A stretch of 27,214 bases of DNA from a virus. The position numbers and the translations under genes are program-made. The notes under the pieces were generated by a model. The model was not told the DNA's origin and did not search any database. It saw only the letters and a list, made by a program, of their open reading frames with translations. Shown one piece after another: positions 1 through 9,409 of this stretch (positions are counted from its first letter, which is position 1; every line of letters starts with the position of its first letter). The stretch is from IMG/VR virus record IMGVR_UViG_3300047667_001116, positions 1-27,214 of that record. One strand, 5' to 3'.

Positions 1-16
1 GTCAAATGGATCACCA
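1..16 (+). repeat. 16-bp direct repeat, copy 1 (copy 2 at 341-356)
   Basis: The first 16 bases of the window (beginning GTCAAATGGATCACC) are repeated exactly at 341-356. In copy 2 the sequence directly follows an ATGAGAACAAGTA start region. This suggests that another member of the same mini-ORF array begins just upstream of the window. Confidence 0.8.
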
Positions 17-19
17 AAG

Positions 20-199
20 ATGAGAACGCGAAAACAAATGGCTACTTGTAACATGCAGTTTGAAATAGATCAAATTTCAAATAGAGTATGGCTTCAAGTC
101 TCAGAAAATGTCAGATGGCAAGTTGCGTCTCGATCATCATTAAGTAAAGTTATCGGTCAAATATTGGAAGTCAAATATGAGAACAATGAGAGCAAGTAG
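20..199 (+). CDS. Tetrapeptide-periodic small protein, array member 1
   Basis: A 59-residue ORF that begins MRTRKQM and ends YENNESK. From about residue 19 a hydrophobic residue falls at every fourth position (I19, V23, V27, V31, V35), usually preceded by Q, R or N, as in QISNRVWLQV. The same pattern recurs in several neighbours. The ORF overlaps the next one by 23 bases, in a segment that supplies both its stop and the next start. No enzyme motif, signal peptide or membrane span is visible. Short XXQV-type repeat proteins occur, from memory, in other tailed-phage genomes with no assigned function. Coding status rests on the shared periodicity and on tiling with its neighbours. Confidence 0.55.
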   Translation: MRTRKQMATCNMQFEIDQISNRVWLQVSENVRWQVASRSSLSKVIGQILEVKYENNESK

Positions 200-341
200 T
201 GCAAGTAATGGAAGACCAAAGATGAGAACAAGTAGTCAAATCTATGGCCAAGTCGGGAGCGATATCTGGAGCAATATCTGGAACCAAGTCTGGAGCAATA
301 TCTGCCGCCAAATCAGGCAGGAGTTAAATGAGAACAAGTAG
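177..341 (+). CDS. Tetrapeptide-periodic small protein, array member 2
   Basis: A 54-residue ORF. It could start at ATG 177 or at the in-frame ATG 222, where the sequence reads MRTSSQI, nearly the start of member 3. Residues 22-50 carry a strict four-residue period of hydrophobics (I22, V26, I30, I34, V38, I42, I46, L50) with N/Q before many of them. Four W residues sit directly after these positions or one step on. It overlaps member 1 by 23 bases and member 3 by 14 bases, so translation could pass from one to the next by coupling. Function is unknown. Confidence 0.5.
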   Translation: MRTMRASSASNGRPKMRTSSQIYGQVGSDIWSNIWNQVWSNICRQIRQELNENK

Positions 342-347
342 TCAAAT
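222..347 (+). repeat. 20-bp direct repeat at 222-241 and 328-347 (start-codon module)
   Basis: The 20-mer beginning ATGAGAACAAGTAGTC occurs exactly at 222-241 and 328-347. In the second copy it contains both the start of member 3 and the TAG stop of member 2. A degenerate copy lies at 177-199 and overlaps the stop of member 1. The repeat therefore acts as a stop/start junction module. Confidence 0.85.
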
Positions 348-516
348 GGATCACCACTATTCGGAGCGAGGTGTAACAGTTGAAGTTTCGAACCGAATTT
401 GTGATGCAGTTATGGCTTTAGTCATGGACCCAGTCTTATTTCAAGTCAATTATCAAGTCATGCTTCAAGTCAGGGATGAAAACCCGGTAGGGCTTACCGC
501 GAACTTTAATTTATAA
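328..516 (+). CDS. Tetrapeptide-periodic small protein, array member 3
   Basis: A 62-residue ORF beginning MRTSSQM. Its middle has eight consecutive hydrophobic residues spaced exactly four apart, from EVSNRI through LQVRDE, with V in almost every case. The protein changes character after RDE and ends in NFNL. Its last codons lie in a 36-bp block that is repeated upstream of the NadR-like gene. The TAA stop overlaps the ATG of the next tiny ORF (TAATG). No known domain is recognised. An exact four-residue period does not match a canonical heptad coiled coil. Confidence 0.55.
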   Translation: MRTSSQMDHHYSERGVTVEVSNRICDAVMALVMDPVLFQVNYQVMLQVRDENPVGLTANFNL

Positions 517-543
517 TGAAATTAACTAAACATTCAGAAGTAA
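508..543 (+). repeat. 36-bp direct repeat, copy 1 (copy 2 at 971-1006)
   Basis: The 36 bases from 508 match 971-1006 with a single difference: G at 518 against A at 981. Copy 2 forms the -10 box and leader of the NadR-like gene. Copy 1 keeps the TATAAT (512-517) but has no recognisable -35 hexamer 17 bp upstream. The single change gives copy 1 an ATG (516-518) that copy 2 lacks. Confidence 0.9.
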
Positions 544-587
544 TATGGCGCAATACAATACAGAATCAAATCAGGGAAGAAAGATGA
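516..587 (+). CDS. Tiny ORF, array member 4
   Basis: A 23-residue ORF (starting MKLTKHSEV, ending NQIREER) that begins in the TAATG overlap with member 3 and ends in an ATGATGA overlap with member 5. It contains one short XXQI-type unit (QNQIREE). Its start codon exists only because this copy of the 36-bp repeat has G where the other copy has A. It may be a remnant or a leader peptide. Coding is uncertain. Confidence 0.25.
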   Translation: MKLTKHSEVIWRNTIQNQIREER

Positions 588-649
588 TGAAAACAATTCA
601 CCGAGTTATTACTGTTGTCTTCGCCGATCAAATCTCAAACCAAGGATAA
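584..649 (+). CDS. Tiny ORF, array member 5
   Basis: A 21-residue ORF (MMKTIHRV to DQISNQG). It begins with the KTIHR motif also found near the start of member 7, encoded by the 17-bp repeat 588-604/798-814. The DQISNQ segment matches the style of the repeat proteins, but it stops early, as if truncated after one repeat. It overlaps member 4 by four bases. It may be a broken copy rather than a functional gene. Confidence 0.25.
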   Translation: MMKTIHRVITVVFADQISNQG

Positions 650-814
650 GCTATATGAAGACAAGTATTCAATTCACTGACCGAGCCTGTAGACAAGTCC
701 ACAGTCAAGTCATGACCCGAGTCAAGTCCCGAGTCTGGAACCGATTTTGGATCCAACTCTGTCATGAAGTCATATCCCAAGTCCGGGATGAAAAAAGTGA
801 AAACAATTCACCGA
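588..814 (+). repeat. 17-bp direct repeat at 588-604 and 798-814
   Basis: The 17-mer TGAAAACAATTCACCGA is present exactly at both positions. In each case it encodes the KTIHR stretch near the start of an array ORF (members 5 and 7). It is a second kind of shared start module, alongside the MRTSSQ type. Confidence 0.85.
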
Positions 815-828
815 CTCTGTTTAATTGA
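655..828 (+). CDS. Tetrapeptide-periodic small protein, array member 6
   Basis: A 57-residue ORF. Residues 15-43 show the clearest repeat in the window: hydrophobics at 15, 19, 23, 27, 31, 35, 39 and 43 (V,V,V,V,F,L,V,V), most preceded by Q or R, as in RQVHSQVMTRV. At DNA level this is a 12-base period of the form CRAGTCNNN. The segment ends ISQVRDE, close to LQVRDE in member 3. It overlaps member 7 by 41 bases. No catalytic motif or transmembrane pattern is visible. Confidence 0.6.
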   Translation: MKTSIQFTDRACRQVHSQVMTRVKSRVWNRFWIQLCHEVISQVRDEKSENNSPTLFN

Positions 829-955
829 CTGCGACAATCAAGTATCGGTGCAAGTTTGCAATAAAGTTTCCGATGGAATATGGCTTAATTCGATACATAC
901 ACTCAATTTAACACATAAAATCCGGAATGAAATTTCTCATGAAAACTCTAGTTGA
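788..955 (+). CDS. Tetrapeptide-periodic small protein, array member 7
   Basis: A 55-residue ORF starting MKKVKTIHR. An in-frame ATG at 764 would add eight residues, but 788 gives the KTIHR start shared with member 5. Hydrophobics recur every four residues in NQVSVQVCNKVSDGI, then the register slips. The ORF ends a few bases past the start of the -35 box of the downstream promoter (952-957). It is the last member before the NadR-like gene. Confidence 0.5.
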   Translation: MKKVKTIHRLCLIDCDNQVSVQVCNKVSDGIWLNSIHTLNLTHKIRNEISHENSS

Positions 956-980
956 CTTGGGTCAAAATATAATTTATAAT
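952..980 (+). promoter_or_regulatory. Sigma70-type early promoter ahead of the NadR-like gene
   Basis: TTGACT (952-957), a 17-bp spacer, then a perfect TATAAT (975-980). The predicted start near 987 leaves a leader of about 30 bases before the ATG at 1018. The -10 region and leader lie in copy 2 of the 36-bp repeat. Confidence 0.8.
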
Positions 981-1006
981 AAAATTAACTAAACATTCAG
1001 AAGTAA
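971..1006 (+). repeat. 36-bp direct repeat, copy 2
   Basis: This copy differs at one base from 508-543. It provides the TATAAT and the untranslated leader of the NadR-like gene. The duplication links the mini-ORF array to this operon's promoter. Confidence 0.9.
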
Positions 1007-1017
1007 AGGATGGAAAG

Positions 1018-2073
1018 ATGTTTGAAGAACAAGGTATCGCAATCGGCAAGTTCATGCCCCTGCATAAAGGACATGAACATATGATCAAATTTGCAGCTGG
1101 GATGCTAGATACACTTCTAGTATTAGTTTCAGGCAGCGAAGATGATGAAATTCCTCTATCAGAACGATATGAATGGGTGAAAGAATTTGTCAGTCGCGAG
1201 CAGCTATTTAATGTTTGCGTGATACATCACACCGACAACTCACCCACACCGATCAACATCGATGAAGACGGAACTGTTCTGGATGAAGAATTCCAACAAT
1301 ATTGGGTAGATGAATTTATACGTGTTAGCAAATCAGCCACGCATGTAGTAAGTAGCGATTTGTACGGCAAAGTATTAGCTGAGCGAATGGGACTCGAATG
1401 GCTTCCAGTGGACCCGAATCGAAAAATTGTGCCTATCAGTGCAACTGCAATTCGCAAAGATCCTGTTAATAACTTTGAATACATTTCAGATTATGCCGCA
1501 TCATTCAAATCTTCTGCTCGTAAAAGAATTACAGTCGTTGGTGCAGAAAGTACTGGTAAAAGCACACTGACAAAGCTGCTTGCTAGAGAATTTAGTGGCT
1601 CGCTTTCGACTGAATACGGTCGAGTAATATCCGAAGCAAGAGGACTAAACCTATCAGGTCGTGATTTTGATGATATCTTTAGAGGTCAAATCGCCCAAGA
1701 TAAAGTCATTGAAAAGAATTCCGTAAGCCCGTTTATGTTTATAGATACCGAAGCATATACGACATATTTATTCGGTCAAATCTACCTCGGCAAGAACCTT
1801 GATTATATCTCTCAGTACGCAGAACAAGAAGATAAAATAGATCTTTACATTCTTATGAAATCTAATGTCGAATTCGTACAAGACGGAGGAAGGATTTTGG
1901 AAGAACAATCCCGACGCGATAAGTTCTTCGATGATATGAAAAGTTTTCTGGTTATGAACAACAAGAATTATGTAATTATCGACGAAGATAATCACAGGAA
2001 AAGATACAACCAAGCATCAAGAGCAGTTTTCAAAGAGCTCTATTATAATATGAAAGAATATGAAAATGATTAA
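1018..2073 (+). CDS. nadR: NadR-like bifunctional NMN adenylyltransferase / ribosylnicotinamide kinase
   Basis: A 351-residue protein with two domains. The N-terminal nucleotidyltransferase domain (about 1-165) has GKFMPLHKGH (HxGH at 16-19) and ISATAIR (140-146), the signature pair for joining NMN and ATP into NAD+. The C-terminal kinase domain (about 168-351) has a Walker A loop GAESTGKST (175-183) and a following EYGR, as in NadR ribosylnicotinamide kinases. It lacks the N-terminal DNA-binding domain of enterobacterial NadR, so a salvage role is likelier than repression. It follows a consensus promoter, with AAGGA upstream of the ATG. It overlaps the next gene by 14 bases. The function is inferred from family motifs and the assignment is strong. 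Confidence 0.92.
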   Translation: MFEEQGIAIGKFMPLHKGHEHMIKFAAGMLDTLLVLVSGSEDDEIPLSERYEWVKEFVSREQLFNVCVIHHTDNSPTPINIDEDGTVLDEEFQQYWVDEFIRVSKSATHVVSSDLYGKVLAERMGLEWLPVDPNRKIVPISATAIRKDPVNNFEYISDYAASFKSSARKRITVVGAESTGKSTLTKLLAREFSGSLSTEYGRVISEARGLNLSGRDFDDIFRGQIAQDKVIEKNSVSPFMFIDTEAYTTYLFGQIYLGKNLDYISQYAEQEDKIDLYILMKSNVEFVQDGGRILEEQSRRDKFFDDMKSFLVMNNKNYVIIDEDNHRKRYNQASRAVFKELYYNMKEYEND

Positions 2074-3079
2074 ATATATTACTAAACAACAATATATGAC
2101 TGAAAGAGATTTAGATAAAAAGGAGTTTGAAGACGGCATACTTTTTAATGTTGCCTGCGGAAACCGAGGGCTACCGTCCGTCATCAATTTCAAAGTATCA
2201 CGATTCGGTAAAAACCGGCGGTTTCCGAATCTAGGTCCTAAAGAAGATAAATTGGGCGTGAAAAAGTTGATCGAAAAATATAGAAATAATCTTCTTGGTC
2301 GCATCAGAAACGGCGAAGATATTGGATGTAAATTAAATCTCACCGCCAAGATAATCATATCAACCTGGTCAAAAAGGTTAAAAGATGGTAATACCGTGCC
2401 TATTACCTATGATGATCTTTCTAATTGGAGAAAAATGGGAATTCCTCACACTGAAGCGGGCATCAACACATATCTATATCCTGACGGCGATGCCGAATAT
2501 CTTTCTGGGTATATTCCAGATTTCGACAAGAAATACACGAGGAATGCCAAAGGAACTATTGAAGGATTTGATCAAACTGAAGAGGAAGTGCATGTTTCGT
2601 ATATTCGAAAATGCGAATTTAAAGAAAAAAATGGCCTGTCCGAATCTAAATTCGCAAAAGCTGTAAAAAATGGCTTGCCGGTAAAGAAAGATTATTTCAA
2701 GACTCCGTATGATAAACGCCACGGCGACGGTTATCCCGAACACTTATCAGACGAAGAAGTGCGCTCATATCTAAAAAACAAAACTCCATGTGAAAATACA
2801 CCATCATATCTCAAGCAAAAACATAGGATGACGCCATATGATTTTGACAAATCATGTAAGAATGGAGCATTTGAGATTGATGGCAATAAATCGGGTAAGA
2901 ACAAAAAATACATTCTCATCGATGAAAATAAAATCTACCGAGTGCTTGACAATCTGATTTTGAAATCACCCGACATCGACCCGGATTCGGAAATAGATCG
3001 GAAAATTGCTGAACTCAAGGAAACCCGGGAAATTGCTGAACTCGAGGAAAAACTTTATAAAATGAAACACGGGAGATAA
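2060..3079 (+). CDS. Unknown protein with repeated excisionase-like helix motifs
   Basis: A 339-residue basic protein coupled to nadR by a 14-base overlap. I do not recognise the family. Three segments look alike: DLSNWRKMGIP (119-129), KFAKAVKNGLPV (197-208) and DFDKSCKNGAF (261-271). Each is followed 20-30 residues later by an acidic helix (for example LSDEEVRSYL). This layout resembles the helix, G-[KL]-P wing and second helix of HTH_17/excisionase-type DNA-binding domains. The C-terminus (311-335) repeats the IAEL unit (KIAELK, EIAELEE) and is likely a coiled coil. DNA binding is an inference from this pattern only. A derivative of a homing-endonuclease DNA-binding region is another possibility. 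Confidence 0.75.
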   Translation: MKMIKYITKQQYMTERDLDKKEFEDGILFNVACGNRGLPSVINFKVSRFGKNRRFPNLGPKEDKLGVKKLIEKYRNNLLGRIRNGEDIGCKLNLTAKIIISTWSKRLKDGNTVPITYDDLSNWRKMGIPHTEAGINTYLYPDGDAEYLSGYIPDFDKKYTRNAKGTIEGFDQTEEEVHVSYIRKCEFKEKNGLSESKFAKAVKNGLPVKKDYFKTPYDKRHGDGYPEHLSDEEVRSYLKNKTPCENTPSYLKQKHRMTPYDFDKSCKNGAFEIDGNKSGKNKKYILIDENKIYRVLDNLILKSPDIDPDSEIDRKIAELKETREIAELEEKLYKMKHGR

Positions 3080-3758: not shown

Positions 3759-4799
3759 ATGACTAAAGAATTTAACACGCTCGTGTTTTGCGGCAGATTT
3801 CAGCCTTTCCATAACGGACACAAGGCAGTAATTGAAAAAGCACTTGAGAATGCAGAGAAAGTAGTGATCGTAATTGGATCATCCTTTCAACCACACACTC
3901 CAAAAAATCCCCTTACATTTAGCGAACGAAGGCTTATAATCCAGGCAGAATTTCCAGAAGAAACCGGTGTTGCTAAACACTATCATCGCCATCCTCGGAT
4001 TGAAATTGTCGGTGTTCCCGATTATCCATATGATGATAATGCTTGGGTAAGCGCAGTCCAAAACGCAGTAGCTTCAGTAAACATACATTCACCAAAGACT
4101 GGTCTCATTGGACACTCGAAAGACAGTAGTTCATATTACTTGAAAATCTTTCCTGATTGGAGGAATCACGTCGAAGTAGATAATGTTGGCGGCATCAATG
4201 CAACAGACATCAGAGAAAGTGCTTACGAAAAGGGCTACTTCAGCGACGAAAATATGCCCGCGGATGCTCTGGCTACTCTCAAGAAAACTCTAAGCCCGTT
4301 TGTTTGGAATGATCTGAGACAAGAATTCCGTGAGGTTGCGGCGTATAAAAAGGCTTGGGAAGCAGCGCCATTTGCTCCAACATTTGTAACCACAGATGCT
4401 GTTCTTACTCAGTCTGGTTACCTTCTGCTCATCAAGCGCGGAAACTTTCCATATAAAGGTTGCTGGGCATTGCCAGGCGGATATCTCGAACCGAATATCT
4501 CAATTGAAGATAACATGATCAAAGAATTGCATGAAGAAACTTGCGTTAGGCTTCCTAAAAAGATATTGAAGGGGTTTATCAGGCGGCGTGATGTATTCGA
4601 CCATCCAGAACGAGATCCTCGTGGTCGGACTATTACTCACGGCTTCTACATTGATCTCGGCTTTCCCGACGAGAAATTGCCGAAAGTCAAAGGCGGCGAC
4701 GATGCTGTGCATGCCGAGTGGGTTCCTCTAAGTGAAATTAGAACCGATAATATGGCGTTCGACCATTACTCTATAATCAAAAGATTCATCAACATCTAA
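3759..4799 (+). CDS. Bifunctional NMN adenylyltransferase / Nudix hydrolase (NadM-Nudix, NatV type)
   Basis: A 346-residue fusion. The N-terminal domain (1-180) has GRFQPFHNGH (HxGH 18-21) and INATDIR (146-152), typical of archaeal-type NadM enzymes making NAD+ from NMN and ATP. The C-terminal Nudix domain (about 205-346) has WALPGGYLEP and the box end KELHEET (255-261). The fusion matches Synechocystis slr0787 and the KVP40 NatV type, where the Nudix part acts on ADP-ribose. The box deviates from GX5EX7REUXEEXGU: I for the first E, K for R and C for G, though the metal-binding E-x-x-E-E is kept. It has a strong TAGAGGAG ribosome site inside competing hairpins. Confidence 0.93.
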   Translation: MTKEFNTLVFCGRFQPFHNGHKAVIEKALENAEKVVIVIGSSFQPHTPKNPLTFSERRLIIQAEFPEETGVAKHYHRHPRIEIVGVPDYPYDDNAWVSAVQNAVASVNIHSPKTGLIGHSKDSSSYYLKIFPDWRNHVEVDNVGGINATDIRESAYEKGYFSDENMPADALATLKKTLSPFVWNDLRQEFREVAAYKKAWEAAPFAPTFVTTDAVLTQSGYLLLIKRGNFPYKGCWALPGGYLEPNISIEDNMIKELHEETCVRLPKKILKGFIRRRDVFDHPERDPRGRTITHGFYIDLGFPDEKLPKVKGGDDAVHAEWVPLSEIRTDNMAFDHYSIIKRFINI

Positions 4800-7960: not shown

Positions 7961-9409
7961 ATGAAAAATATACTACATCTGCTAACAACTATCATCCGTA
8001 CTGACGGATACAAACTATCACAGTTTCTGCAATACCCAGCAAAAACTGCGTACATCAGTTCTTATATCGAGTCGCGCGGTGGAGAAGATGAAAGTGTGTT
8101 CTTTGGAATTCAAGCATTCATCAAAGACTACATGATGTCACCGATTACATTGAAAGACATTGACTTTGCTGAAAAGATATTTCTATTATATGGAGAACCA
8201 TTCAACCGTGCAGGGTGGGAAATTATTCTGAACGAATATGAAGGATATCTTCCATTAGAAATTGAAGCGGTTCCAGAAGGCACTGTTATGCCGACTCGAA
8301 ATATTCAAGTTCAAGTAATCAACACTGACTCTCGTTTGGCATGGTTGGTCTCCTATGTTGAAACTGCAATGCTGCGCGGTGTATGGTATCCGTCAACTGT
8401 TGCTACAAAGTCACGCAAACTAAAGAAAGTTATTGCTCAGGCTCTTGTTAAAACCAGCGACATTCCGGTCGATGAACAGATATTTTTCAAGCTGCACGAC
8501 TTTGGCGCTCGCGGTGCAAGTTCAACCGAGACCTCAGTTCTTGGCGGTATGTCACACCTTGTAAACTTTATGGGAACTGACACCATTGAAGGCATTGTAG
8601 GAGCAATGACATATTACAATGCAGAAGTGTGCGGATTTTCGATCCCAGCAAGTGAACACTCTACTATTACTAGCTGGGGCAGAGAAAACGAAGCCAAGGC
8701 GTATGAAAATATGATCGATCAATTTGCTGGCGAAGGAAAGATCTACGCATGTGTTAGCGACAGCTACAACATCTACGATGCTGTAGAGCGCATTTGGGGC
8801 AAAGAGCTAAAAGAGAAAGTTATCAATAGTGGCGGCACCTTGGTGGTACGTCCTGATAGTGGTGATCCTTTGACTGTTCCAATCGAAGTAGTTAGACTTC
8901 TGATGAAACAGTTTGGATACACTGTAAACTCAAAAGGGTTTAAAGTATTGCCTAGCTGCGTCCGTGTAATTCAAGGCGACGGTATCAATGAAGATTCATT
9001 GCCGCAACTCATTGATAATATGATTGCAGCAGGATACAGCATTGATAATATTGCATTTGGAATGGGTGGTGGTTTACTCCAAGCATGGAACCGAGATACA
9101 CTAAAGTATGCCATGAAAGCATCTGCGCGATGTGATGATGATGGTGTATGGCACGATGTGTACAAAGATCCAATTGATGACAAAGGCAAGTTGTCTAAAA
9201 AAGGTCGACTGGGTCTTGTGCATGAATGCGGCGTAGGTAGCTGCTCTTACCGTACTGTGCCAAAGCACATTGCAGATAAAAAAGGAAATATTATTCGAGT
9301 AATCTGGCGCAATGGCAAATTTTTAATCGAAGATGACTTTGATACAATTCGCAAACGCGCTGAATTGCAAGAAGAGGAGTACATGCATGCTACAGTCGAA
9401 CGGTTCTGA
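7961..9409 (+). CDS. nadV: Nicotinamide phosphoribosyltransferase (NadV/NAMPT)
   Basis: A 482-residue full-length NAMPT. It makes NMN from nicotinamide and PRPP. Visible family motifs in order: DGYKLSQF (15-22), HDFGARG (179-185), IPASEHSTITSWG (228-240) with the presumed catalytic His233, LVVRPDSGDP (294-303), IQGDGI (337-342) and FGMGGGLLQ (366-374). The length equals that of bacterial and phage NadV. Its product is the substrate of the NMN adenylyltransferase domains in the 1018 and 3759 genes, completing a two-step nicotinamide-to-NAD+ route. It has a strong ribosome site in a hairpin. The assignment is strong. Confidence 0.96.
   Translation: MKNILHLLTTIIRTDGYKLSQFLQYPAKTAYISSYIESRGGEDESVFFGIQAFIKDYMMSPITLKDIDFAEKIFLLYGEPFNRAGWEIILNEYEGYLPLEIEAVPEGTVMPTRNIQVQVINTDSRLAWLVSYVETAMLRGVWYPSTVATKSRKLKKVIAQALVKTSDIPVDEQIFFKLHDFGARGASSTETSVLGGMSHLVNFMGTDTIEGIVGAMTYYNAEVCGFSIPASEHSTITSWGRENEAKAYENMIDQFAGEGKIYACVSDSYNIYDAVERIWGKELKEKVINSGGTLVVRPDSGDPLTVPIEVVRLLMKQFGYTVNSKGFKVLPSCVRVIQGDGINEDSLPQLIDNMIAAGYSIDNIAFGMGGGLLQAWNRDTLKYAMKASARCDDDGVWHDVYKDPIDDKGKLSKKGRLGLVHECGVGSCSYRTVPKHIADKKGNIIRVIWRNGKFLIEDDFDTIRKRAELQEEEYMHATVERF

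Follow-up and report, generated by a model that had tools for sequence, protein, structure and literature searches.

An array of small overlapping genes with a four-residue hydrophobic repeat in an uncultivated phage, and the link of its family to DUF6745

Organization of the array and its surroundings

The window analysed here is the whole 27,214-nucleotide stretch of IMG/VR record IMGVR_UViG_3300047667_001116, a 27.2-kb uncultivated virus record whose T4-like replication genes encode a gp32-type SSB (phrog_224), UvsX (phrog_97), a DnaB-type helicase (phrog_19), and a late-transcription regulator (phrog_254). The left end of the window contains the 3′ portion of a small-gene array. Seven + strand ORFs (20–199, 177–341, 328–516, 516–587, 584–649, 655–828, and 788–955) are joined by junctions of −23, −14, −1, −4, +5, and −41 nucleotides, exactly as given in a preliminary description of this DNA. 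The array runs off the start of the contig, and seven is therefore a lower bound.

ORFs of at least 20 residues that begin with ATG cover 0.99 of positions 20–955 on the + strand and 0.30 on the − strand. Across 1000 dinucleotide shuffles of this region the mean coverage was 0.45 and the maximum 0.92, so that the near-complete cover described earlier stands. The same region encodes a hydrophobic residue (Val, Ile, Leu, Met, or Phe) at every fourth position in runs of up to nine, compared with at most seven in the shuffles, and contains 46 i,i+4 hydrophobic pairs against a shuffle mean of 10.8, a count that no shuffle reached. At the DNA level, self-matching peaks at lag 12 (z = 9.7) and lag 24 (z = 5.1), and an excess is absent at lags 3, 6, 9, and 15.

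The preliminary description treated the seven ORFs as one family, five of them with the four-residue period. A profile of related genes (see below) supports five frames, here called tetrad ORFs, and gives no support to the other two (Table 1). ORF 516–587 is not supported as a member; its ATG lies inside a repeated promoter/leader module (D2). ORF 584–649 (profile E about 1.8) is probably a truncated remnant of a gene, because its start module duplicates that found at 797 (repeat D3, 71% identity over 49 nucleotides). Translation probably begins at 222, 328, 584/587, 655, and 788/797; a purine-rich sequence resembling a ribosome-binding site lies ahead of each of these positions. Tetrad ORF 2, for which a longer frame begins at 177, contains seven lag-4 hydrophobic pairs where 1.9 are expected, and is overlapped by tetrad ORF 3 over 14 nucleotides. 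Tetrad ORF 6, with an additional in-frame ATG at 764, has the weakest profile match of the five. The ORFs lie in different frames and have start modules in common (repeats D1, D3, and D4), as had been described.

Table 1. Features of the array and of the adjoining module in the window
Feature	Positions	Strand	Description
Tetrad ORF 1	20–199	+	59 aa; profile E 2e-6; 5′ context lost at contig start
Tetrad ORF 2	222–341	+	Probable start MRTSSQIYGQVGSDIWSNIWNQVWSNICRQIRQELNENK; profile E 2.7e-9
Tetrad ORF 3	328–516	+	62 aa; profile E 6.3e-7; AGGAG before ATG
MKTIHR start module, probable truncated copy	584–649	+	21 aa, MMKTIHRVITVVFADQISNQG; repeat D3; profile match not significant
Tetrad ORF 5	655–828	+	57 aa; profile E 2.8e-9; single helix 3–50 predicted
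Tetrad ORF 6	788–955	+	Start at ATG 788 or at GTG 797 (KTIHR start module); profile E 0.0024
Promoter/leader module, copy 1	476–543	+	TTTATAATGAAATTAACTAAACATTCAGAAGTAA; includes start of unsupported ORF 516–587
Promoter/leader module, copy 2	939–1006	+	Precedes NadR-like gene at 1018–2073

The two copies of the 68-nucleotide D2 module are 78% identical; one stands before ORF 584 and the other, which holds a TTGACT-17 nt-TATAAT element at 952–980, before nadR. The NadR-like gene thus sits behind a duplicated promoter module that is also present in the array. It belongs to an NAD salvage trio within this one phage, together with a nucleotidyltransferase-NUDIX gene (3759–4799) and a NAMPT gene (7961–9409).

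The tetrad family: coding character, predicted fold, and diversification

When IMG/VR was searched for four exact CAAGTC-N6 units, at least 120 stretches were found, and the reversed pattern had no match in the array-bearing genomes. When CAAGTC is read as Gln-Val, most matched loci are series of small ORFs encoding [Q-V-x-x]n. Among the matches listed there are at least 279 complete tetrad ORFs of up to 180 residues in at least 89 loci, a few of which are unrelated simple repeats; the ORFs are mostly 50–80 residues long and number up to 18 per locus. They typically start with M-K-S/T/Q/A-V or a lineage variant, and end in lineage-specific tails (KENLK, DEK, DDRL, NEIS, HEIGS, and others). Of 147 junctions between close neighbors in the listed matches, 70 are 4-nucleotide overlaps, with overlaps of 17 (15 cases), 14 (13 cases), and 8 nucleotides (13 cases) following.

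A family profile was built solely from these other IMG/VR loci, with the window left out. Run against 5474 sequences (782 frames from the window and 4692 controls made by shuffling or reversal), it gave its five best scores to window frames, with the E-values of Table 1 against 0.027 for the best control. On sequence grounds, this ranking makes the window array a divergent representative of a family that is large and undescribed. Only 9 of its 35 core pairs are exact CAAGTC, and its tetrad ORFs end in VRDEN, VRDEKSEN, IRNEIS, or IRQELNENK, tails similar to those of L014, L063, and L195. Arrays that have diverged to a similar degree and yet remain open are found in G047 (L456). Contigs frequently end within tetrad arrays, as at window position 1, in L063, and at both ends of G049. 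Assemblies probably break inside these arrays, and the family is therefore likely to be under-counted.

The tetrad family is coding, to judge from its codon patterns. Free codons in 1276 distinct units from the listed matches, each with CAAGTC on either side, contain no in-frame stop, where about 130 would be expected by arithmetic from the base frequencies at free codon positions; stops are present in frame +2 of the same units. Other lineages use the synonymous Gln-Val cores CAGGTC, CAAGTG, CAGGTT, and CAGGTA, and two DUF6745 proteins of phage records carry Gln-Leu or Ser-Leu tetrads. It is therefore the protein register that is conserved, and not a DNA hexamer. A ribosome-binding-like match of at least 4 nucleotides precedes 46% of tetrad starts, compared with 27% of control positions, and one tetrad ORF of L020 and one of L069 can be read downstream of TTGAC-type and TATAAT hexamers and AAGGT. 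The preliminary description had named a lack of frame conservation as the sign of a non-coding repeat; the absence of stops and the synonymous cores are the opposite of this. In the window's own phage, the tetrad genes would likewise be translated.

An exact period of four drifts around a helix by 40 degrees with each unit, a geometry at odds with both heptad coiled coils and pentapeptide solenoids. Both kinds of protein resemble the tetrads in their regular hydrophobic spacing, and both were rejected: the window frames show a hydrophobic excess at lag 4 and nothing comparable at lag 7 or lag 5, and have no Pfam match, in agreement with what had been proposed. AlphaFold2 models window ORF 5 as one helix (residues 3–50; mean pLDDT 81, pTM 0.39), although the program tends toward a single helix for such repeats and the model is not strong evidence. 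Q-V also recurs every four residues in the QVT-x linkers of bacterial ATPase-like proteins that the same scan picked up, but these are short, uniform (TPQV, TEQV), and confined to one protein, without free positions or gene arrays. In L220, L230, L246, L258, and similar bacterial loci, the Q-V-T-x repeats are linkers in proteins of about 400–600 residues and directly precede a conserved C-terminal helical segment.

Changes in the free codons hit mainly the first and second codon positions and involve all bases. Within loci, first and second positions carry 1.09–1.48 bits, and the two third positions 0.81 and 0.49 bits. Among unit pairs separated by a single base change, 1107 are nonsynonymous and 81 synonymous, about three times the expected ratio, or 3.5 times when restricted to transitions. 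Since these pairs are not independent, and since unit copying could damp silent variation, the excess is consistent with diversifying selection and is not proof of it. In the relatives, the 12-nucleotide units and the start and end modules are visibly reshuffled. L020 and L069, for example, align at about 85% in the flanks, while the tetrad ORFs between these keep their start context and differ in the order, number, and free residues of their units. The diversification by shuffling of DNA modules that the preliminary description suggested is thus seen in relatives. For the window's array, no array-bearing close relative having been found, such shuffling is suggested solely by repeats D1, D3, and D4.

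The closest described parallel is found in Borgs, mobile elements whose genes contain in-frame, rapidly evolving amino acid tandem repeats (PMC9879509). Borg repeats are perfect amino acid repeats, mostly disordered, that are inserted into varied existing proteins (PMC9879509). Tetrads differ in that one motif extends across many phages, with variable positions at fixed places and whole genes in tandem.

Positions 1–3000 of the window had no match by DNA similarity among phage records, the exact start module had none in IMG/VR, and no family in Pfam, PHROGs, NCBIfam, or PADLOC matches the window ORFs. Intact tetrad proteins give weak matches to phrog_5189 and phrog_23568 (function unassigned). 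A tblastn search of phages with tetrad peptides, in which low-complexity masking limits BLAST, found only prophiGD102-1, inside a DUF6745 protein. No close relatives were found via NadR. UvsX led to 80 loci, and the 24 records tested had neither arrays nor DUF6745, in a scan whose profile did match 7 of 8 positive-control records, one of them the window. Comparison of the locus between related phages, as proposed at the outset, therefore found nothing conserved at this place. In the literature covered, which did not extend to subscription journals and preprints, no description of DUF6745, of the tetrad motif, or of tandem small-gene arrays was found.

Linkage and fusion to DUF6745

DUF6745 is encoded in 26 of 49 array-bearing viral records, compared with none of 50 other viral records and none of the 24 UvsX relatives (26/49 vs. 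0/74; Fisher p = 2e-13, with a few near-identical pairs making the array-bearing records not fully independent). Many of the 23 array-bearing records without DUF6745 are short fragments. In the array phages, the DUF6745 gene lies on the same strand as the tetrad ORFs and upstream of them, with a gap that is mostly 3–109 nucleotides and otherwise 370–576 nucleotides, and this order recurs in independent lineages.

Elsewhere, the tetrads are part of the DUF6745 protein. Arrays of 7–55 units lie at one fixed place inside larger proteins that match PF20530 (E 2.9e-23 for L082), in phages and also, as judged from sequence likeness, in bacterial contigs (such as L256, L260, L274, L283, and L287). 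Fused forms include L450 2182–3627 (a Mycobacterium abscessus prophage) and L451 3001–4278 (Siphoviridae sp. cta39025), in which the tetrads are Q-L-x-x and S-L-x-x; the register is the same and the residues are different. Many DUF6745 proteins (PF20530; phrog_31813), among them gp38 of the Mycobacterium prophage prophiGD102-1, contain such long internal arrays, whereas gp174 of the Microcystis phage Ma-LMM01 is a DUF6745 protein without tetrads. Those of the array phages (for example L020 7240–8085) likewise lack tetrads, and the alignment shows a short loop at the position that the array takes up in the fused proteins. What is one internal segment in the fused proteins takes the form of separate overlapping genes in the window. 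In an AlphaFold2 model of fused L076, confidence is high in the two flanking parts (pLDDT about 90); the tetrad segment is modelled as helical, at a pLDDT below 50. A fold search with a fused DUF6745 model found no significant solved structure, and BFVD gave DUF6745 or unnamed phage proteins. PADLOC models did not match array-type DUF6745.

A further small gene, conserved in sequence (AAQGDFxIxRI...AHSETGHxHV), recurs in most array loci at no more than about 1.6 kb from DUF6745, as at L020 6847–7200, L453 243–602, and L452 2081–2452. Its copies in array phages have no Pfam match. It is absent from the window, and a similar gene (gp175) precedes DUF6745 in Ma-LMM01.

No DUF6745 gene was found in the 27-kb window record, and no window ORF matches DUF6745 in Pfam. 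The contig begins inside the array, and the DUF6745 gene would lie upstream, beyond its left end. Proteins that are fused in one lineage and encoded side by side in another are usually physical partners, and it is on this pattern that a partnership between tetrads and DUF6745 is suggested. The strength of this link narrows the earlier verdict that the function of the array is unknown.

Proposed diversified helix partners and alternative readings

On balance, we find it probable that the array encodes diversified helix partners of DUF6745. The array would consist of small, translated, paralogous genes for "tetrad proteins" of the form [polar-hydrophobic-x-x]n, with Q-V-x-x as archetype and mostly 40–80 residues in length. 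Ribosomes would probably start on each gene either at a dedicated ribosome-binding site or by re-initiating at an overlapping stop and start. The products would be single amphipathic helices in which the hydrophobic stripe is fixed and the two free positions vary between copies. Copies may arise through duplication and unequal recombination of 12-nucleotide units, so that the reading frame would always be kept, with amino acid changes favored at the free positions. The helices would be the separately encoded form of the segment held inside DUF6745 elsewhere, and would most likely bind or complete the upstream-encoded DUF6745 in trans. DUF6745 would most plausibly gain exchangeable, fast-diversifying contact surfaces against a variable target in the host or a rival phage. 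The many varied copies, the excess of amino acid change, and the patchy distribution among phages suggest a target that keeps changing, for example a host factor; we take this as a real possibility that falls somewhat short of probable. More tentative, and somewhat unlikely, is the fullest version, in which tandem libraries of coupled, reshuffled single-helix genes serve as the trans variable segments of a split DUF6745 and track host targets. Several points run counter to the partner reading. The window tetrads have diverged further than those of the archetype, one copy is truncated, and local decay is possible; the 27 kb contain no DUF6745 gene, and the 24 UvsX relatives have neither arrays nor DUF6745. 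The excess of nonsynonymous change could also stem in part from unit copying that keeps silent sites uniform, and a single helix is the usual AlphaFold2 outcome for repeats of this kind.

The foremost alternative, which we consider unlikely, is that the small proteins act alone, as membrane-active or self-assembling helices or decoys, with DUF6745 as just a neighbor in an accessory region. Several arrays per genome can indeed lie far from DUF6745 (in G022, DUF6745 is at 14 kb, with one array at 20 kb and another at 32 kb), and the window array adjoins nadR. However, tetrads sit inside DUF6745 in other phages and in bacteria, and the operon-like adjacency recurs across independent lineages. Next in order comes the improbable reading that the archetype is coding and the window array a decaying, non-functional remnant. 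Local decay of this array is possible, given its diverged cores, the truncated copy, and one weakly matched frame; against non-functionality stand the 99% open-frame cover, the persistence of the period in five frames, the ribosome-binding-like sequences retained at the starts, and the diverged open arrays of G047.

Two further readings place the repeat in the DNA itself. A neutral 12-nucleotide minisatellite, expanding in frame since out-of-frame changes break genes and yielding proteins that are tolerated and not useful, would be comparable to the tandem repeats in Borg ORFs. It would account for the uniformity of the units at any one locus, for their reshuffling, and for steps that preserve the frame. 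We regard it as quite improbable: whole genes are repeated, with conserved starts, tails, and stop–start overlaps, amino acid positions vary more than silent ones, and a single partner gene is strongly associated. Disfavored as very improbable is a non-coding DNA or RNA repeat with ORFs as by-products. The strong 12-nucleotide period and the recurring hexamer core are what it predicts, but the units contain no in-frame stops and the cores vary synonymously. A structured RNA or CRISPR-like repeat was also rejected, as Rfam gave one chance-level match, outside the array, and inverted repeats are absent.

What is new here is a gene architecture and a protein family, not a proven mechanism. An exact-period-four repeat is encoded as up to 18 serial micro-genes, among the matches listed, in many uncultivated phages, some of which have T4-like UvsX or capsid genes; in isolate records, tetrads were found only as inserts inside DUF6745. 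Such micro-ORFs are easily missed. Their link to DUF6745 is the first lead on this domain, and the excess of amino acid change, together with linkage and fusion to one domain, makes the arrays a testable candidate for a diversifying phage–host interaction system.
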